From contig QHZD01000028.1 of the NCBI GenBank assembly GCA_003225315.1, positions 62,001 through 126,000 of the forward strand: a stretch of DNA of 64,000 nt. The letters run 5' to 3'. Every line of letters begins with the position of its first letter. The stretch's first letter is position 1. Below, piece by piece: positions 18,720 to 34,569 of the stretch. This DNA is from Acidobacteriota bacterium (GTDB lineage Bacteria > Acidobacteriota > Terriglobia > Acidiferrales > UBA7541). Below the pieces are notes generated by a model, which saw only the letters and a list, made by a program, of their open reading frames with translations, searched no databases and was not told the DNA's origin. The translations under genes and the position numbers were made by a program.

Positions 18720-19880
18720 CTAGGGCGACTTTCGCCTCGCTGTCGCTGGCCCTGCGCTGGCCTTCAACTTGTCCTGCGCCAGTGATTTGTAGGGACCGCT
18801 CACCGAAGCCGCCTGCGTGAACGCGTCCTTGGCCTCGGCAGTTCTTTTCAAATTCAGCAACGCATACCCCAAGCGATATTGATTTCGCCCGTAGCTGCCG
18901 TCATCCGCCTTCAACAACGGCGCCGCTGCTTTCAGGTTTTCCACGGCTTGGGCGTTGTCCTTCTTTTCGATGTTCACCTGTCCCAGCGAACTCAGCGCCA
19001 GACCCTTTTGCAGGCTTTTCTGCCGATCCCACTGGTCGTCCGCCACACCTTCCGGCTTTGGGGCCGTGCCCAGCACCGAAATTGCTTTTTTCGCATACGT
19101 TTCGGCTTTGGCAAGCTGGTCGGCCTTATCGCAATAATAGTCGGAGAGCAGCAGCAACATCCCGACGTTGTTCGGATCCTTCGCCAGAAGCCCGTTGGCC
19201 ACTTCCAGCATCTTGGGCGTGTTTTGCGCTTGCAGGTAAGACGTTGCGGCCACTCCGAGCGCCTGATTCGCGTACGGTGAATCCGGAAAGGCCTGCGCGA
19301 ACCGCGTCAGGTATCCCGCGCGCTTCCCTGTGTCCTTCGCCTGAATGGCCCCGTTGTAGACTACCTGCTGAATGTAAATGATGCTGTCCTTGTTATTCTC
19401 CAGCACCTGCGACTTCTGATGCTCCCATTGAGAAGCGTCAGTCCCCGCGGGAGCAGGGGCTTCCTTGTAGCGTTTGAGAATTCCTCCTGTTTTATCTGCA
19501 TACGCGATGATCCGCTCGGAGTCTCCTTTTTCGGAAGCAGCACGGATCATATTCATGGCGTTCTGAAAATTGTCGGGGTCGGCTGCGAAAAGTTTGTCGC
19601 CATATTCAAACGCCTTGTCGTAATTCTTCAGCGCAATGTAGTAGTCCACGTACAGACCATCGGCCAGGATGGGATTGTCTCCCTCGTTGCCGGGTCCCGC
19701 TGCGAACTTGTCGATGAGCGCAAGCTTCTGTGCCGGATCGGTCGCCGCGTTGATCTCCGTCAACGCGTGGTCCACCTCCGACCCCGCCTGGACGGGAACG
19801 TACTTGCCAATCTGTTGTGCAGGAGCGGAGCGGACTCCGAAGAAAACCAGTATGCCGATGAGCCATATTTTTCGTCGCAT
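18720..19880 (-). CDS. Secreted TPR-repeat protein
   Basis: A protein of about 386 residues with a Sec signal peptide (MRRKIWLIGILVFFGVRSAPA, cleavage about residue 21) and then tetratricopeptide-like helices. TPR-type hallmarks (LLLLSDYYCDKADQLAKAETYAKKAI, VENLKAAAPLLKADDGSYGRNQYRLGYALLNLK as repeat pairs) run through the whole mature part; the end is basic (ATARRKSP). It is likely a periplasmic scaffold. ATG at 19880 follows GGAGG. The transcript probably starts at the strong promoter near 20.47 kb, giving a leader of more than 500 bases. Confidence 0.8.
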   Translation of the reverse strand: MRRKIWLIGILVFFGVRSAPAQQIGKYVPVQAGSEVDHALTEINAATDPAQKLALIDKFAAGPGNEGDNPILADGLYVDYYIALKNYDKAFEYGDKLFAADPDNFQNAMNMIRAASEKGDSERIIAYADKTGGILKRYKEAPAPAGTDASQWEHQKSQVLENNKDSIIYIQQVVYNGAIQAKDTGKRAGYLTRFAQAFPDSPYANQALGVAATSYLQAQNTPKMLEVANGLLAKDPNNVGMLLLLSDYYCDKADQLAKAETYAKKAISVLGTAPKPEGVADDQWDRQKSLQKGLALSSLGQVNIEKKDNAQAVENLKAAAPLLKADDGSYGRNQYRLGYALLNLKRTAEAKDAFTQAASVSGPYKSLAQDKLKASAGPATARRKSP

Positions 19881-20465
19881 GGAAACCTCCAAGGGGAGGA
19901 AATTGGGTGCATCTTAGTGCTGCAGTGGGCTCTGCGCAAACAAAATTCATTAGGGCAACCGGACTCTGGGGAGAGCACCCCCCACCCGGGTGGTTTTGGG
20001 CAAAGAGTGCGGAAGCACATGAAAACAAGAGAGTTGAGTTTTTGATGAATGCAAAAGAGTGCGCAAGGGTGTGAAAAGAAAGAACTTGAGTAAGAAGGCG
20101 AGTCCTCATGGCCGATTCGCGCAAGTCTTCCAAGACTTGCGAGGGCACCCCCCACCCCTGGTTTTTTGTAAGTGTTGCATCTAAAGGGCTTAGCTCGACC
20201 GTAAGTTTTGTGTTTGCAGCAACTTGCGGAGAAATCCATAAATGTTGCAGGTAAAGAGGTTAGGGGAGCGAAGTGTTGGCAAGAACAGAGCGGCGAGAAA
20301 TGCGAAGAGTTTGTAGCAGTAGGAAGGACCGTGTGAGGGGCGGGCATGATTTGCAGGCCACCATCCTTTCCAGAGGGTTGGAATCTACGACCCCGACAGG
20401 ATCGAGATCTACAATCACAAGGGTAGGTCGGGCAGGCGGAGGAAATGTTCCGACTTAACACGACT
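19881..20465. other. Long repeat-bearing leader or non-coding region
   Basis: Around 580 bases without a believable gene. It holds two copies of GCACCCCCCACCC (19975-19987 and 20145-20157), a perfect hairpin GCAAGTCTT/AAGACTTGC (20121-20140), and two related 21-base sequences TGTTGCATCTAAAGGGCTTAG (20173-20193) and TGTTGCAGGTAAAGAGGTTAG (20243-20263). Transcription from the promoter at 20466-20493 would read through all of it toward the TPR gene. It may be a leader RNA or an independent small RNA, or just repeat debris. Confidence 0.5.
20121..20140. repeat. Short palindrome in leader
   Basis: GCAAGTCTT and AAGACTTGC are perfect inverted copies separated by CC. It looks like a small REP-type palindrome within the repeat-rich leader. 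Confidence 0.6.
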
Positions 20466-20493
20466 ATTATAGCATATTGGTAACGTATGTCAA
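20466..20493 (-). promoter_or_regulatory. Consensus sigma-70 type promoter
   Basis: On the minus strand the sequence reads TTGACA (20488-20493), a 16-base spacer, then TATAAT (20466-20471). Both hexamers are exact consensus. Transcription would start near 20459 and run left through the repeat-bearing leader to the TPR gene. Confidence 0.75.
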
Positions 20494-20496
20494 GGA

Positions 20497-21865
20497 TTAC
20501 TTTAAGTCGTTTAGATGCTGTGGGATAGCCCAGTGTCTGTTGGAAACGAATCCCGCAGTCTTTGAAAAATCCAATCCCAAAGAGATTCGCCACGCGACGC
20601 CCTCGCGTGGCGAATCAGGGGTACTCCAGCCGCTGGAAAAATCCGAAGACCCGCGTGCATTCAAGGTTGATCGCTTGTGCGGAGCGCAATTCCTTGTCCG
20701 CGCATGCGCCGCCGAGGTCTCCGTTTGGGCAGTCTTTCGCAATCCAACAAAAAAAACGTCGAAGGCAAGCGTGCGGTAGGCTGCCCCATCTTTAGCATGC
20801 CCGTACACGACCGAGCGGTAGCGGAAATAGTTTCCGTATCGGTCCTGGCGGGCTTCCTCGTGGTAGTCGAGTGAGATAGCGTCTATCCCCAGGCTGTAAA
20901 GGGAGTGCAGCTCTTGGGTCTGTGAAATGCCGTCATGATTGCTGTCTATCCAAATCAAGAGCTGCGGCAATATGCGGTCCCTCGAATCAATAATTCCATC
21001 GCGATTCCCGCCGCTTTCTGGACGGTCAAAAGCCGCGAGGGCATCCCAGCCATTTGACGCGACGTTCCCGTCAGGAAGCGGGGTGCTGTTGCCGAAAAGC
21101 TCGCGCCCATTGTCGATCATTCCGTTCTCATTTCTGTCCAGCGCCAGGAAACCGTCGTCGGAATTTAGCACTGTCCATGCGGTCAGCCCGGCACGCCCAT
21201 CATTGTCCAGATCGAATCGGACGCCGCCTTCCAAATCGGTCAACTCATACCCGTCCCGGCCAAGATCGAAGATGATGGGGCTGTGAGGATTGATTCCCGT
21301 ACATTGGCAATTCTCGTCGCAACCCAAGCATGCTTCAACGCTCATACATTCCGAATCTATGCCGCATGAACCACCGGACGGAGGTGGTGGGGGTGGGTAC
21401 TGGGGATCGCTGCTGGTGATACTGTCATTGTCGCACGTTGTGACAAAAGTCGGCATATTGTCAAAGGAGCCATTACAAACTTGGTTCATGGTCGAGCCAT
21501 TTTGCACCAAGCCGCAATTTGGCGAGACCTGAGCCAGCACAGCCCGCCGTATTACAGAGGACAATCAAGATTTGCGTGGGCCCAGAGTTGTTGCCAAAGT
21601 TGAAGAAGGAGACGGTCGAATTGTTCGCACCATTGGCGTTCGTCCAGTTATCGAATGCCTCTTGAATTTGGGTCGTCTGATCGCCGCTTGCGCCAGAAGG
21701 CATTCGGAAGCTTACTGTGGCACCTTGCGCCCATCCTCCGTGTGTGGCACTCAGTGGCGGGTCCACACAACCGCTCTGGGCGAAAACGTCAGAATGCCTC
21801 AAGAGCACGTAGATGACGGGAAACAAGACCGCTACTATGAGAGTAACCGCCCGTATGCGCCTCAT
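20497..21865 (-). pseudogene. Secreted calcium-binding repeat protein split by a frameshift
   Basis: Two minus-strand frames read as one protein. The first (to about 21530) has a signal-anchor and a segment QTTQIQEAFDNWTNANG that recalls the start of a matrixin-type protease domain. The second continues naturally with LAQVSPNCGLVQNGS, a Cys-rich stretch, and a long Ca-binding part: DLGRDGYELTD, DLDNDGRAG, DRNENGMIDNGRELFG and DSNHDGISQ, which are EF-hand/dockerin-like loops. The frame changes near 21525-21545. The end of the second frame (after AFDVFFVGL) is low-quality, as if it reads past a natural end. Either a sequencing or assembly slip, or a decayed gene. Confidence 0.65.
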
Positions 21866-21913
21866 CTTATTCCCCTCCTCCTGAGCGCAATGGAGAGCCT
21901 CTGAACAAGTCGG

Positions 21914-22600
21914 CTATCGACACGACGAGGCAGCGGCTGCTCGCGCATCGGCGAGGGCTGACGCTCCATCTAAGTCCAACGCATCCTGGTTGTGCGCCTG
22001 CTGCTGTCCGTGCCAGAGCCCCAGGGGCGTCAAGTTAAGAACCATGCCGTCTTTAAGCTCGAAGCTTCTGTTCCAGAGCGCCTGGTAGTCTTGCGTCGTT
22101 GGAAGAAACTTCAAAAACAGAAGGTATTGCCCGCCGGTGGAAAAATCTCGAAAGTGCCTGAGCGCCACTTTGACTTGCTTGCCATTCAGCACTAGAGCGC
22201 CGCCTGGGCGCGTCACCGTTATGGTTTGAAGGGCGTGCAATTCAGAAAGGGAATTGTTCTTGAGAATCTCCGTGGCAGAGACTTCGGCATCTGTGAAAAT
22301 GAACGATTCGTCTGGGGAAAGTACCGCGGTTTGGCTAGCTACCTTGCCGACAATGACCGCGTCTGACTGACAGGCCATCTTCGTAAGAGCGGTTAATCGA
22401 GTCGGAAGAGCGCTCTCAAGTGGCACATCCTCATCGATGCTATAGCCGCCCTTGGTTTCCGTTACCTTGAACCCCGACTTTCCATAATGCTGAAAAAGCT
22501 TGCTGTGCTCCAACTGCCTCTGCGTCTGCGCCACTTGTGCCAGCGGTACCGAGGGAAGGAGGAGAAGTCCTAGTAGTCCAAATGCTATGGTGGCTTTCAT
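21914..22600 (-). CDS. Secreted protein of unknown function
   Basis: A 228-residue protein with a signal peptide (MKATIAFGLLGLLLLPSVPLAQ) and a mature part rich in beta segments, including DAVIVGKVASQTAVLS and ILKNNSLSELHALQTITVTRPGG. The paired pattern resembles the secreted immunoglobulin- or carboxypeptidase-like domains common in Acidobacteria, but I do not recognise a family. The C-terminus has a DALDLDGASALADARAAAASSC tail with a final Cys. It precedes the frameshifted calcium-binding gene on the same strand. Confidence 0.65.
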   Translation of the reverse strand: MKATIAFGLLGLLLLPSVPLAQVAQTQRQLEHSKLFQHYGKSGFKVTETKGGYSIDEDVPLESALPTRLTALTKMACQSDAVIVGKVASQTAVLSPDESFIFTDAEVSATEILKNNSLSELHALQTITVTRPGGALVLNGKQVKVALRHFRDFSTGGQYLLFLKFLPTTQDYQALWNRSFELKDGMVLNLTPLGLWHGQQQAHNQDALDLDGASALADARAAAASSCR

Positions 22601-22907
22601 GGGCCATTACCTCACAAGGACGAAACAGGTCTGGTTGGGCTTTGACATATCGCCAAAAAATATACTCGCAATGTTCTGTCAAGTGTGCGAGTGGCATAGC
22701 TGCTCGCCCTTTACCGCGGCGCAGAATAAATTTTTGCTTGGAGTTTTGTCAATCCGATAATGACCTCAAAAAAAGTACTACCTGAAATTAGTACTAAATC
22801 TTTTTGGCAATGCTGGACATGTTTCTGATCAACTTTGGAACGACGGCGGGACATTTGACGGCGCTCCTGATTCGCGAGACGATTGAAGTTTTGATTGAGG
22901 TGCCGGA
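22601..22907. other. Intergenic region, promoter side of the secreted protein
   Basis: About 300 AT-richer bases between the minus-strand secreted protein and the plus-strand SDR remnant. It must hold promoters for the divergent units. I could not make out a well-formed promoter; a TTGACA at about 22645 has only 13 bases before TATACT, which is too short. Confidence 0.4.
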
Positions 22908-23363
22908 ATGGATCTGAGGCTCGTGGGACGCGTGGCCATCGTCGGGGCCTGCCAGCAAGGGACTGAGACGTGCCGTCGCGGAGGAGCTTGCCCGCGAAGG
23001 CGCCCGTGTCTGTATCTGCGCGCGTACAGCGAGCACGCTTGCGAAAACCGCAGCGCACATTCAGAAAACGACAGGCGGCGAAGTCCTCTACCAAGCACTG
23101 GATGTGATTGATTTTGCGACAGTTGCGCTGTTTGTGGCGGCAGTTAATGCTCGCTTTAGCCGCGTGTACGTCTATGTTACCAATTCAGGTGGTCCTTCGT
23201 CTAACATGTCTAGGAACACCTGCCGGAAGCGTGGCGCGCTGGCATCGACCAACTTCTGATGAGCGCCGTTTATTTGGCCAGGGAAACTCCTTCGCAAATG
23301 CCAAAGAGAAAGTGGAGACGTCTTATTACGATTACTTCTTCGGCGGTCTGCTCCAGCCCTCAA
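22908..23363 (+). pseudogene. Broken short-chain dehydrogenase/reductase gene
   Basis: The remnant is an SDR that changes frame at least twice. It opens with MDLRLVGRVAIVGA, the NAD(P)-binding strand and Gly loop. Around 22957 the frame shifts and continues GLRRAVAEELAREGARVCICAR, then VLYQALDVIDFATVALFVAAV and VYVTNSGGPSSNM. Near 23210 it shifts again to WRAGIDQLLMSAVYLARE and RLITITSSAVCSSPQ followed by stop. The catalytic Tyr-Lys region and the rest of the C-terminus (about 120 residues) are absent. This is a true decayed gene, not a single base error. Confidence 0.85.
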
Positions 23364-30014: not shown

Positions 30015-30077
30015 CTTTCTTGCAAATTTCAGGGACCGCGACCTTTGGTCACGTCGCTCGCCTGCTATCATCGACCG

Positions 30078-32873
30078 ATGCCTCTTTCCTGGAACGAAAT
30101 CCGGCACCGCGCGATCGCCTTTTCCAAGGAATGGACAGGCGTCAAGAGCGAGCAAGCAGAGAAGCAAACGTTCTGGAACGAATTCTTCGATGTCTTCGGT
30201 ATTCGCCGTCGCGTCGTAGCGAGCTTTGAAGAGCCTGTTAAGAAAATCTCTGGTGACTACGGTTATATTGATCTGTTCTGGCCCGGCATCGTGCTCATTG
30301 AGCATAAGAGTCTTGGCAAGGACCTAGACAAGGCGGAATCCCAGGCCTTCCGATACATTCAAGACCTGGCACGCCAAGGACGCACAAACGAAATTCCTCG
30401 CTACGTCATCGTTTCGGACTTTGCCCGTATCGCCCTCCACAATCTTGAACCTGAAGACCAGCGCAACTTGCCGCTCTTTGAAAGCCGCCGCGTGGAGACC
30501 ATCGAATTTCCACTGGCCGACTTTCACAAGCAAATTCGTGAGTTTGCATTCATCCCAGGCTACAAGCAGCACAAGTTCGCCGAACAAGACCCGATCAACA
30601 TCGAAGCGGTTGAGATCATGGGGCGTCTGCACGATGCCCTTGAAGCAGGCGGTTATTCGGGGCATCAACTTGAACGCTTCCTTGTCCGCATCCTCTTTTG
30701 TTTGTTCGCCGAAGACACTGGCATCTTCGAACGCGAATCCTTCAAGCTATATCTGGTGAACCGCACTGCCGAAGACGGCTCCGACCTCGGTCAGCATCTC
30801 GCACATCTTTTCGACGTGCTGAATACACCACGCGAGAAACGCCAGAAGAACCTCGACGAAACTCTTGCTGCCTTCGCTTACGTCAACGGCGAGTTATTTG
30901 CCGAAAATCTTGGCTTTGCCGATTTTAACCGTGAAATGCGTAGCGTTCTTCTTGCGTGTACGGCGTTCGATTGGTCGCGCATCTCGCCCGCTATTTTCGG
31001 TTCGCTTTTCCAGGCAGTCATGGAGCCAAGGGAACGCCGTCAGATCGGCGGGCATTACACCAACGAGCGCGACATTCTCAAAGTTATCCGCTCGCTTTTC
31101 CTTGACGACCTGCATGCGGAATTCGAGCGCGTCAAGAGCAGCAGAGCCGACCTGAAACGCTTCCACGAAAAGCTCGCGGCGCTTCGATTCCTCGACCCCG
31201 CTTGCGGCTGTGGAAATTTTCTCGTCATCACATACCGCGAGCTGCGTGAACTGGAAATTGAAATCCTCAAGTTAATCCACAGGGCGGACCAACCGAAATT
31301 AAACATTCAGGAGTTGTCGCTCGTGGATGTCGATGCGTTCTACGGCATCGAGATCAGCGAATGGCCAGTCCGCATCGCCGAGGTCGCAATGTGGCTGATG
31401 GACCACCAGATGAACATTCGCCTGTCGGAAGCATTTGGGCAATATTTTGTCCGCCTGCCACTCAAGAAGTCACCTACGATAGTCTGCGACAACGCGCTCC
31501 GACTCGACTGGACGAAAGTTCTGCCACCCGACCAATGTAGCTACGTCCTCGGTAATCCGCCGTTTGTCGGCCAAAGCTTTCAGACCACAGAACAGAAGGC
31601 GGACCAGCAATTCGTCCTCTCCAACATCCAAGCCCGCGGCGTGCTCGACTATGTCTGCAACTGGTACGTGAAAGCGGCGGAATACATCCAAAGTACGGGT
31701 GTCATCGTTGGCCTCGTCTCGACAAACTCCATTACCCAAGGCGAACAAGTTGGAATTCTTTGGAGCGAATTGTTTAGACGCTACCGGCTGAAAATTTCCT
31801 TTGCGCACCGTTCTTTTGCCTGGGCGAGCGAGGCGCGCGGCAAGGCTCACGTCCACGTTGTCATTATTGGCTTCGCTGCCCTTAATGTAACCAACAAACG
31901 GATTTACGACTACGACGGTGGAGGAGAACAGGTAACTGTTAGTGTCGTTAAAAATATCAGCCCCTATTTGATTGAAAGCTCAGACCTCGTCGTCACCAAT
32001 CGGACAAGTCCCCTCGGTGACGTTCCTAAGATGTCTTGGGGCAACAAGCCAACGGATGGAGGACATTTCCTTCTGTCGCCGGAAGAGCGCAGTCAGCTAC
32101 TCGAAGCTGAGCCCGGAGCCGAGGTATTCATCCGTCCGTACATGGGCGGCTTCGATTTCATCAATGGCGAGCGGCGCTATTGCCTTTGGCTTGCCGGGGC
32201 TGACGCCGATCAACTTCGCAAACTACCAAAGGTGATGGAAAGAGTGGAACAAGTTCGTGAGTTTCGGGCTCGCAGCAAGGCTGAATCGACTCGTCGTTAC
32301 GCAAAGTTTCCTACGCTCTTTAGGCAGATCGCCCAACCGGAATCGGACTACTTGGCCGTGCCCGAAGTCTCTTCAGAGAATCGGCCATACATCCCCATTG
32401 CCTTCGTGTCCAAGAACGTGATCTGCAGTAATACAGTCCAATTTGTGCCAGACGCCACACTCTACCAATTCGGTGTGCTCACATCAGTCATGCACATGGC
32501 GTGGGTCAGACAAGTTTGTGGGCGCTTAGAATCACGCTATCGCTATTCAAATAGCCTCGTATACAACAACTATCCCTGGCCAGAAGCACCTAATACAAAG
32601 CAGCGCGTTGCAGTCGAAGTGGCTGCGCAGGGGGTACTAGATAGTCGCAAGAAATTCCCCAAAGCAACGCTTGCCGACATCTACGACCCCCTGGCAATGC
32701 CACCTACACTTGTGAAAGCCCACGCCGAACTGGACCGCGCCGTAGAGCTCTGTTACCGCCCGCAACCTTTTCAGAATGACCGCCAACGCGTCGAACATCT
32801 TTTTGCCCTCTACGACAAGCTCACCGCGCCACTGATCGCCCCTGCCAAGAAAAGCCGACGAAAGAAGGCTTGA
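30078..32873 (+). CDS. MmeI-like single-polypeptide restriction-modification enzyme (type IIG/IIL)
   Basis: A 931-residue enzyme that should both cut and methylate DNA. The N-terminal nuclease motif is D65 ... E75-H-K77 (in IDLFWPGIVLIEHK), a PD-(D/E)xK site. A helical linker follows. The adenine methyltransferase core has motif I LDPACGCGNF at about 372-381 and motif IV NPPF at about 493-496, both complete, and the C-terminal 300 residues would be the target-recognition domain. The start is the ATG at 30078; an upstream in-frame start adds a poor leader. No separate methylase or specificity gene is needed. The target sequence is not readable. Confidence 0.92.
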   Translation: MPLSWNEIRHRAIAFSKEWTGVKSEQAEKQTFWNEFFDVFGIRRRVVASFEEPVKKISGDYGYIDLFWPGIVLIEHKSLGKDLDKAESQAFRYIQDLARQGRTNEIPRYVIVSDFARIALHNLEPEDQRNLPLFESRRVETIEFPLADFHKQIREFAFIPGYKQHKFAEQDPINIEAVEIMGRLHDALEAGGYSGHQLERFLVRILFCLFAEDTGIFERESFKLYLVNRTAEDGSDLGQHLAHLFDVLNTPREKRQKNLDETLAAFAYVNGELFAENLGFADFNREMRSVLLACTAFDWSRISPAIFGSLFQAVMEPRERRQIGGHYTNERDILKVIRSLFLDDLHAEFERVKSSRADLKRFHEKLAALRFLDPACGCGNFLVITYRELRELEIEILKLIHRADQPKLNIQELSLVDVDAFYGIEISEWPVRIAEVAMWLMDHQMNIRLSEAFGQYFVRLPLKKSPTIVCDNALRLDWTKVLPPDQCSYVLGNPPFVGQSFQTTEQKADQQFVLSNIQARGVLDYVCNWYVKAAEYIQSTGVIVGLVSTNSITQGEQVGILWSELFRRYRLKISFAHRSFAWASEARGKAHVHVVIIGFAALNVTNKRIYDYDGGGEQVTVSVVKNISPYLIESSDLVVTNRTSPLGDVPKMSWGNKPTDGGHFLLSPEERSQLLEAEPGAEVFIRPYMGGFDFINGERRYCLWLAGADADQLRKLPKVMERVEQVREFRARSKAESTRRYAKFPTLFRQIAQPESDYLAVPEVSSENRPYIPIAFVSKNVICSNTVQFVPDATLYQFGVLTSVMHMAWVRQVCGRLESRYRYSNSLVYNNYPWPEAPNTKQRVAVEVAAQGVLDSRKKFPKATLADIYDPLAMPPTLVKAHAELDRAVELCYRPQPFQNDRQRVEHLFALYDKLTAPLIAPAKKSRRKKA

Positions 32874-33206
32874 GGATCGAAATTGGCGCGGCAGACTTTC
32901 ACCCGCCATCTGCACTTCCAAACCCTAAGTAGCCGCATCTTCTTCAACTTGCCGCTCCATTCGAATGATACACAACAAATAACTTGACAACCCGTGACCT
33001 TCGTGATACATTTCTTTGTGTATCTCGCATCCCACTTTCGCCGACCGCCTGTCTTCCTTCTTGGCCTAACCCCTATTCCTCTGCCTCCATCTCCTAAGTC
33101 CTTTCCTCTCAATCCTTTTGCCGACCCCCACACCCTAAACCCATACGCTGCAATCCTTTACAAAAAGATGGCGGGGGAGGGGCCCTCCCAACATACCGTA
33201 TCCCTT

Positions 33207-33311
33207 AAGTTCTTTCCTTGCCACAGATCCGAAAATTCGCCCGTAAGTCCCGCCGTTGCCACACTTCCGAAAACGCCCTATCGCAAGTCCTTTCTTGCCA
33301 CACTTCCGAGT
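33207..33311. repeat. Degenerate tandem repeat, period about 39 bases
   Basis: Three units begin with AAGTtCTTTCCTTGCCACA-like, AAGTCCCGCCGTTGCCACA and AAGTCCTTTCTTGCCACA, each followed by (C)TTCCGA or ATCCGA. Unit starts are 33207, 33245 and 33285. No spacers of uniform size, so not a CRISPR array. Confidence 0.55.
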
Positions 33312-33420
33312 CCTGCGGACCTGTGGCTCCAACTTACTTCCAGAAACGGCTACGCCCTTCCCGCAGCGATGGGGGTAGCCGCGAAAAGGGCGCGCCGTCT
33401 TCAGGAGAGAAGATCGAGTC

Positions 33421-33499: not shown

Positions 33500-34402
33500 T
33501 CAGTTGTCCGCAGGTGGCGGAGGAGGAGGTGCGCCCGGCCCGCCTTTGAAGTTCTGGATGAACCTTCTGTTTTTGCCGGCCGTTACCGTGTAGTCCGATG
33601 GCACGGCAAAGAGCGAAGCAGCCGGCTCCGTCCGCTGAATGTTCGTCAGCGTGTATGTCGATTCGCCGCTCCACGGATTCGCCCGCTTGCTCATAACCAC
33701 CATCTGCAAATCGTTGGAGAACCACGTCTCTCGCACGATGACGATCGGCTTTTCGTTTCCGATTTGTCCGGCGGGAATCGTGCGCGTCAGCCGCGTTCCT
33801 TGCGCGCTGACTCCCGCAATCGTCTGCGTGCCGAGATCTTCTTTCTTGAGATTGCCGGAAGCTATTTCCTCTTGCTCGCGAGCCGCCATTTTCCCCTTGA
33901 TGTCGCCTTTCATCGGTCCCTTCATTCCGTGAACCGGGCGGCCCATTTTCTCCGCAGCTTTGGTTTCGGGATGCAGCACGAAACTCGCGTTCGCAACGGG
34001 ATCATTGATTACCACGAACGACTTCGGCTGCCCGGACGCCGCCAGCGGGCCAAATCCCGACAGCGTGACTTCCTTGCGAAATCGTCCCTGGCCGTCGCGG
34101 AACAGGTTCACCTGCGACTTGCGAGAAATGTGATTCCCGTCCGCGAGAGTCTGGTTCGTTTCTTGCACGGCTACCGCGCTGAAGGGCGCGCCGGTCACCA
34201 CTTGGCCGCCGTGCAATCCTTCAAATCCCAGCAATTCAACGCCGTCGCCCATCTGCATGAATACGCCGGGACCTTCTCCGTGCACCACCACGCCCACACC
34301 CGCGCCCGGAGGAGGCGGTGGGCCCTCCTGCGCCCACAAGGAGCCAGCGGTTCCTGCCAGCGTTCCAGCGAGAAGCAGGTTTGTGAATACTCTTCGATTC
34401 AT
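33500..34402 (-). CDS. Secreted proline-rich protein of unknown function, sigma-operon member
   Basis: A 300-residue protein with a signal peptide (MNRRVFTNLLLAGTLAGTAGSLWAQ), then a proline run (GPPPPPGAG), and a mature domain with segments FFSAVAVQETNQTL, LFRDGQGRFRKEVTLSG and SFVVINDPVANASFVL. The C-terminus ends with another proline run (GAPPPPPPADN). I do not recognise the domain. Its ATG overlaps the stop of the 55-residue gene (TAATG), and the unit continues upstream to the anti-sigma and sigma factors. So the regulator pair probably controls this exported protein. Confidence 0.75.
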   Translation of the reverse strand: MNRRVFTNLLLAGTLAGTAGSLWAQEGPPPPPGAGVGVVVHGEGPGVFMQMGDGVELLGFEGLHGGQVVTGAPFSAVAVQETNQTLADGNHISRKSQVNLFRDGQGRFRKEVTLSGFGPLAASGQPKSFVVINDPVANASFVLHPETKAAEKMGRPVHGMKGPMKGDIKGKMAAREQEEIASGNLKKEDLGTQTIAGVSAQGTRLTRTIPAGQIGNEKPIVIVRETWFSNDLQMVVMSKRANPWSGESTYTLTNIQRTEPAASLFAVPSDYTVTAGKNRRFIQNFKGGPGAPPPPPPADN

Positions 34403-34569
34403 TATTTCGTCTCCTCTTCTCTCCCGAACTGTTGCGAACTCTTTGCCATGGCAATCGCGGCCAATCCCTTTTTCAACTGCGCGACCCACACTGTAACCAG
34501 CTTCCCGCGCTCTTTCAGGTCCGTTTCAGCTGCGCGCCTTACTCTTTTCCAAAAAGCCGATGCCACCAT
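34402..34569 (-). CDS. 55-residue basic protein in the sigma-factor operon
   Basis: A small, highly charged protein starting MVASAFWKRVRRAAETDLKE and ending AMAKSSQQFGREEETK. GGAAGGAG stands eight bases before the ATG, and the stop overlaps the next ATG as TAATG. It fills the gap between the anti-sigma gene and the secreted protein exactly, which argues for a real gene. No domain is recognised. Because it is short it is easy to overlook. Confidence 0.7.
   Translation of the reverse strand: MVASAFWKRVRRAAETDLKERGKLVTVWVAQLKKGLAAIAMAKSSQQFGREEETK

Follow-up and report, generated by a model that had tools for sequence, protein, structure and literature searches.

Consensus promoter and repeat element upstream of a TPR gene

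The window (the whole 64-kb stretch of DNA that was analysed) carries on its minus strand a gene for a tetratricopeptide-repeat (TPR) protein, ahead of which lies a consensus promoter belonging to a dispersed repeat element (Table 1). The promoter, TTGACATACGTTACCAATATGCTATAAT (20493-20466, minus strand), had been reported in a first-pass annotation as TTGACA-16-TATAAT at 20.47 kb, and matches TTGACA-N16-TATAAT with 0 mismatches. It was the only match in the window when up to one mismatch was allowed, relative to a chance mean of 0.10 and at least one match in 9 of 100 shuffles. A looser promoter scan of positions 19700-20700 also returned this site alone (12/12 matches, with TG preceding the -10 box), shuffled versions of the region yielding a mean of 0.6 sites. 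Its recurrence in dispersed copies is a further reason to regard the promoter as more than a chance match. The next gene on the same strand starts at 19880, as had been stated, leaving 580 bases after the promoter without a gene; a long ORF (19760-20593) spans the stretch.

The element runs from GCTATCCC, the start of conservation in most of 11 copies from the same genome, to the last G-tract, which is as far as similarity to a copy on contig C29 extends. Transcription is predicted from the promoter to start near 20459. The two G-tracts that had been noticed as GCACCCCCCACCC were both recovered, as GGGTGGGGGGTGC, and are surrounded by a 33-nt repeat. The hairpin at 20140-20121 is perfect, and the two related 21-base repeats that had been noted are taken to sit inside a direct repeat of 38 nt (20002-20039 and 20054-20091, 74% alike). 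No terminator-like site was found on the minus strand within 19700-20700.

Table 1. Features of the TPR locus and of a tentative second element in the window
Feature	Position	Strand	Basis or remark
TPR protein gene	18720..19880	-	Pfam TPR_14, TPR_8, TPR_2
Promoter-like block of the TPR gene, TTGCGC-17-TAAGAT, outside the element	19911..19939	-	Conservation
Whole element	19975..20529	-	About 555 bp, GCTATCCC to last G-tract
Consensus promoter TTGACA-16-TATAAT with conserved spacer	20466..20493	-	Exact match and recurrence in copies
5' hairpin GATCTCGATCCTGTCGGGGTC	20389..20409	-	Sequence
Unit T1: G-tract preceded by two module cores (20231-20262, 20161-20192) and a partly paired arm pair	20149..20264	-	
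First G-tract GGGTGGGGGGTGC	20145..20157	-	No shuffle with two copies
Perfect hairpin GCAAGTCTTGGAAGACTTGC, without T-run	20121..20140	-	Common to the C29 copy
Unit T2: tandem CACTCTTT modules, second G-tract at end	19973..20097	-	R2 match, E 3.4e-32 (window copy itself included in the R2 model)
Second G-tract GGGTGGGGGGTGC	19975..19987	-	No shuffle with two copies
Tentative second, diverged member	32930..33320	+	Ends approximate; TTGACA (32984-32989)-17-TACATT; GGCGGGGGAGGGGC

Copy number and taxonomic spread

A search with the 631 bases of 19870-20500 gave many matches in the genome of the window and matches in 29 of the 61 genomes searched. The promoter region of 11 own-genome copies was modelled from sequence only (R1), and this model found 14 copies in that genome (E <= 0.001) and at least 139 places in at least 23 of the 61 genomes (E <= 0.01), all in one genus under strict filters: at least 23 of 36 genomes inside the genus were hit, and 0 of 25 outside it among the matches listed. 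From 8 of the 23 genomes, 67 of these copies were analysed further, and 37 of them carried an exact TTGACA-N16-TATAAT; as the search itself relied on the promoter region, the presence of that promoter in the copies follows by construction.

The 21-base and GCACCCCCCACCC repeats had been suggested for a search elsewhere in the genome; the T2 unit proved to be dispersed, a model of this unit (R2) producing 16 own-genome matches at 15 places (E <= 2.1e-8). Matches to R2 occurred in 19 of 200 genomes of the class, namely 16 of the same genus, 2 belonging to two further genera within the family, and a borderline case (E 5.2e-4) in a genome of another family. The T2 core was also present in genome G010 and in genome G036, the latter of another genus.

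Named records with the promoter pattern were mostly soil Acidobacteria metagenome-assembled genomes (MAGs; gp2 AA95, AA96, 13_2_20CM_57_17 and others), and R1 matched 17 of 18 promoter-pattern loci, the exception being a chance match. Locus L193, in an Alphaproteobacteria MAG, was rejected as a family member, with neither an R1 match nor a module and a pattern match ascribed to chance. The contig that carries the element at locus L203 was assigned to a Deltaproteobacteria bin and may be an acidobacterial contig binned in error. A phage origin was also rejected, the exact search pattern, which only 24 of the 67 copies meet, being absent from viral contigs. Several matches fell within about 250 bases of contig ends (C70, C13 and C168 in G013; C361 in G005; C56 and the weak matches on C34 and C50 in G000), which suggests that the repeat breaks metagenome assembly.

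Modular organization of the family

In most copies similarity begins at GCTATCCC, about 36 bases ahead of the -35 box. The common order of parts is CCACTTA(n)AGTAAT, the promoter and its spacer, a 5' segment (a hairpin is frequent here and in some other copies had, by eye, a different sequence at the same position), the modules, and a closing GGGGGTGGGG. The modules, from one to several per copy, are related sequences of about 30 nt in TAACTCCTTT-n-CAACACTTACnAAAAAC or tandem CACTCTTT forms. A 32-base core, TAACTCCTTTAGATGCAACACTTACAAAAAAC, scored at 19 or more identities (relative to a maximum of 18 for the reversed sequence elsewhere), occurred 127 times in 62 of the 67 leaders, at variable spacing. 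Two motifs, CAACACTTAC and GGGGTGGG, were present in 29 and 31 of the 67 leaders, where 0.0 and 0.4, respectively, were expected from Markov shuffles.

These parts are combined differently from locus to locus. T1 and T2 units were also found behind other promoters, and eight own-genome loci were fetched where T2 stood without an R1-type promoter; at six of these, judged by eye, TTGACA lay upstream at the usual spacing to a -10-like hexamer. Upstream of the fumarase C gene (fumC) the unit was, also by eye, T1 in some species and T2 in others. Two similar-looking genes of the window's genome (by eye; L136 at C9:150.7 kb and L138 at C33:15.6 kb) have a common upstream region consisting of GTGAGCTCTACCCCTTTGTTTTCTTCTCTTTG, ACTAGTACTATAATTATA and TTGACA followed by T2, a second promoter class.

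A tentative second, diverged member in the window lies between an MmeI-like restriction-modification gene (30045-32873) and an opposite-strand gene (33503-34489). It contains three module-like cores (at 33136, 33206 and 33244) scoring 20-21 out of 32, relative to 19 or less elsewhere in the window, and was matched by neither R1 nor R2. A weak match to the T2 model at 34404-34476 (plus strand, E 0.016), where a gene runs on the opposite strand, is probably due to chance.

RNA structure and coding potential

The predicted fold of the window copy was no better than that of shuffled sequences (z -0.33; 39 of 100 shuffles equally good), and 0 of 6 pairs in the T2 consensus were compensatory. In T1, RNAalifold predicted 3 pairs, 2 of them with doubly changed sequence, and the arm pair was 86.0% paired (83.6 +/- 0.7 when shuffled) with a covariation of 0.099 (0.062 when shuffled); for both measures none of 500 shuffles was as high, and five cells were doubly changed. 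Covariation, which the first-pass annotation had proposed as a check, was thus nil in T2 and slight in T1. A conserved RNA structure was rejected, T2 having none and the T1 signal being too small to claim a fold; the slight covariation means that T1 may have a structural role. Stable stem-loop RNA as in BOX-like repeats was seen neither in the window copy nor in the T2 consensus. Rfam gave 0 matches over 19860-20520, either at E <= 1 or at the gathering threshold.

Across 13 ungapped copies, of which one row (G013:C185) looks misaligned, pN/pS was 0.96, relative to a mean of 0.89 in 100 column shuffles, 78 of which did not exceed the observed value; on this result a coding frame was rejected. 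Differences at codon positions 1, 2 and 3 of the same copies numbered 1,494, 1,692 and 1,461, respectively. The ORF at 19760-20593 had no Pfam match at E <= 0.001.

The downstream TPR gene and its promoter-like block

Homologues of the TPR gene were present in 27 of 41 genomes (E <= 1e-20). The upstream regions of 14 of 21 loci (the window's included) were aligned, and in 14 of 14 a block of TTGC, about 17 bases and TAAGAT (TAAAAT in G024) lay directly upstream of the gene. The block was seen by eye in six of the seven unaligned loci, the locus in G009 being without it. The corresponding block in the window, upstream of which the element lies, has a low consensus score and was not listed by the promoter scan of 19700-20700, and so is identified as a promoter by its conservation and position only. 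Judged in this way, the TPR gene seems to keep its own promoter. Close to the gene, a CCTCC lies four bases ahead of GGAGG, the likely ribosome-binding site (19886-19899); the two are able to pair, which might mask the start site.

An R1 or R2 match upstream of the TPR gene was found in the genome of the window and in G013 only, the same searches detecting no element in 19 of the 20 other genomes. The module core was also absent at 17 of these 19 negative loci, where up to 900 bases of upstream sequence were checked, with less at some loci (for example, 411 bases in G018). Positions 22871-23348 of the window were 74-76% identical to DNA that in G011 and G015 adjoins the TPR gene on its upstream side, and nothing equivalent to positions 20594-23224 was present in the 8 kb of G013 examined at the locus; the displaced counterpart and the missing segment together indicate that the stretch upstream of the element has itself been rearranged. 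The interval 20594-22870, between the element and 22871-23348, seems to have been inserted or replaced.

Persistence, orientation and exchange at other loci

At several loci the element precedes the same gene across species (gene families named from their own-genome members): fumC in 7 genomes, the exonuclease VII large subunit gene (xseA) in 5, and the rRNA adenine dimethylase gene (rsmA) in 4. At a class-V aminotransferase (iscS-like) locus, an element or a remnant was present in 6 of 10 other genomes, with differing types of promoter and module, and no element was present in the remaining 4; G027 and G012 yielded no such locus.

The next gene was co-directional in 50 of the 67 copies and on the opposite strand in 17, and among copies flanked by co-directional neighbours 32 were sense and 5 antisense, all of these counts being approximate because of the home-made gene caller and the merging of some leader frames into the downstream gene. 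In G010 and G036, 13 of 18 T2 units were co-directional with a gene. Given these proportions, some copies and units may serve as gene promoters.

With ortholog groups assigned by hand, the nearest relative of the 41 copies at shared loci was an orthologue in 24 cases, a same-genome paralogue in 11, and another copy in 6; for the remaining 26 copies it was a same-genome paralogue in 17. The window copy was closest to the copy at a thiolase gene on contig C29 of its own genome. For some genome pairs synteny was lost at the 5' end of the element or close to it, although part of these breaks may be assembly artefacts, as some copies lie at the ends of MAG contigs. No clean pair of filled and empty sites was found that could reveal a target duplication, the empty TPR and iscS sites being too diverged. 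Persistence, presence/absence and homogenisation together form the pattern that a spreading or gene-converting repeat family would leave; the copies nearest to an orthologue (24 of 41) and the loci retained across species also fit an inherited function.

Interpretation and alternative explanations

By sequence, the stretch belongs to a repeat family with copies at many loci and is not a private leader. We consider it probable (roughly 60%) that this copy, about 555 bp in length, represents a modular, noncoding and multi-copy intergenic element specific to one lineage of soil Acidobacteriota, a promoter/RNA element with a putative role in added transcription. The element would have arrived at the TPR locus, or been rewritten through exchange with other copies, in an ancestor of the window's genome and G013. 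Its near-consensus promoter of the sigma-70 type would produce an untranslated RNA of about 485 nt starting near 20459, in which the mostly unstructured modules are putative binding sites for some trans factor. The G-tract may mark the end of the RNA, a proposal weakened by the missing terminator-like site on the minus strand. As with Correia and BOX elements, the net effect would be to supply a further transcript or promoter upstream, and the element would not act as a leader that senses a metabolite; at the TPR locus this would mean extra transcription upstream of a seemingly native promoter. The first-pass annotation had offered a noncoding RNA or a regulated leader of the 19880 gene. The former was a sound prediction, in that the promoter, a consensus sequence found again in other copies, is followed by a noncoding stretch repeated along with it; the latter was not supported, for the reasons given below.

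A possible, if doubtful, alternative is a family of free-standing small RNA genes; an RNA-binding protein would be titrated or recruited by the repeated unpaired modules of their transcripts, and proximity to genes would be incidental. Such a family would account for the opposite-strand gene next to 17 of the copies, and likewise next to the tentative second copy in the window, for the repetition of mostly unstructured modules, and for a T2 core common to another genus. It is harder to reconcile with the co-directional gene that follows most copies and with the absence of a terminator-like site, and the protein that it invokes is hypothetical.

Such RNAs could also be imagined as a genome-wide noncoding RNA system, with dozens of loci per genome, near-consensus exchangeable promoters, and transcripts in which one set of unpaired motifs recurs in arrays. 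A lineage-specific RNA- or DNA-binding protein would be sequestered or recruited by these transcripts, and housekeeping genes (fumarase, exonuclease VII, rRNA dimethylase and class-V aminotransferase) would in this way be linked in one network, module types being swapped by gene conversion. As a complete scheme we regard this as unlikely.

A miniature inverted-repeat element (MITE), that is, a non-autonomous relative of an insertion sequence, appears improbable. Multiple copies with sharp ends, same-genome nearest relatives for part of the copies, presence or absence at orthologous loci, and, in some pairs, loss of synteny at the 5' end or close to it would all be expected of one, but terminal inverted repeats were missing: in the 40 of 67 copies that were testable, the best complementarity of end 10-mers was 6.8, relative to 6.7 when shuffled, with p < 0.05 in 2 of the 40.

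A role for the element as an attenuator, riboswitch or other cis-regulatory leader of the 19880 gene seems quite improbable. Promoter and gene are co-directional, with 579 bases from the predicted RNA start to the ATG, similar elements precede the same gene in several species elsewhere, and the promoter-like block next to the gene has a low consensus score; against this, that conserved block adjoins the gene, the element was undetected there in nearly all other genomes searched, no Rfam family matched, and the fold was no better than shuffles.

An rRNA-type antitermination leader, built of boxA-like CTCTTT motifs on a C-rich, Rho-prone RNA, would suit the several CTCTTT motifs in T2 and the C/G ratio of 1.57 in the predicted transcript. 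This origin was rejected as very improbable, because the canonical boxA of the clade, GCTCTTTGACA, which was present in 5 of 5 16S leaders (four from genus members and one from a same-family genome), had no match in the element at up to 2 mismatches, and the T1 modules carry CTCCTTT instead. A small protein gene is scarcely credible, even with a frame that reads M-x4-AVLLTPS...PLDATLTKN in many copies and is open from an ATG in the first 70 or so bases in 19 of 38 T1 copies (26 of 38 for any ATG), given that codon positions vary about equally at the pN/pS above, that module spacings of 68, 69, 70 or 71 bases break the frame between copies, and that the window ORF has no Pfam match.

Comparison with known repeat systems

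What looked like a lone, lucky promoter is thus placed in a genus-wide family of uncultured soil bacteria in which promoters and modules are interchangeable. Near core genes, such elements would provide promoters and untranslated RNA from a source so far unrecorded, and would account for some open frames that lack a coding signal; those at several contig ends may break metagenome assemblies. Among open-access papers searched at the level of titles and opening abstracts, none clearly described the element, and within that scope neither the sequence family nor its way of joining a promoter to modules appears to have been recorded before. Noncoding RNA motifs predicted in Acidobacteria or soil DNA include Acido-1, Acido-Lenti-1, Soil-1 and Solibacter-1, as given in the part of PMC2864571 consulted here. 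Acido-1 and Acido-Lenti-1 have Rfam accessions there, yet the element matches no Rfam family; the comparison covered these two, and Soil-1 and Solibacter-1, without an accession in the table of that paper, may represent an earlier sighting.

In build, the element resembles the BOX elements of Streptococcus pneumoniae, which the excerpted account in PMC3049150 describes as dispersed composites of distinct modules with a variable number of the inner one, transcribed as 5' or 3' extensions of operons, with a mobility mechanism that is unproven; they can hold long open frames without clear translation, and stem-loops are predicted in their RNA. Like BOX, the element has many intergenic copies per genome (14 of the promoter type and 15 T2 places) and consists of modules in variable number and order. 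Unlike BOX, it is not notably folded, and its copies open with a near-consensus promoter and close with a G-tract; the likeness is one of build and not of compared sequence. Correia elements of Neisseria, according to the portion of PMC10969869 drawn on here, are small, dispersed MITEs with terminal inverted repeats and sigma-70-like promoters, often lie directly upstream of genes, and are known to supply promoters. The element shares with them a sequence-predicted sigma-70-like consensus promoter and a frequent position upstream of genes, and differs in having no terminal inverted repeats. Within the scope of these two accounts (PMC3049150, PMC10969869), the behaviour of BOX and Correia elements provides a precedent for that proposed here.
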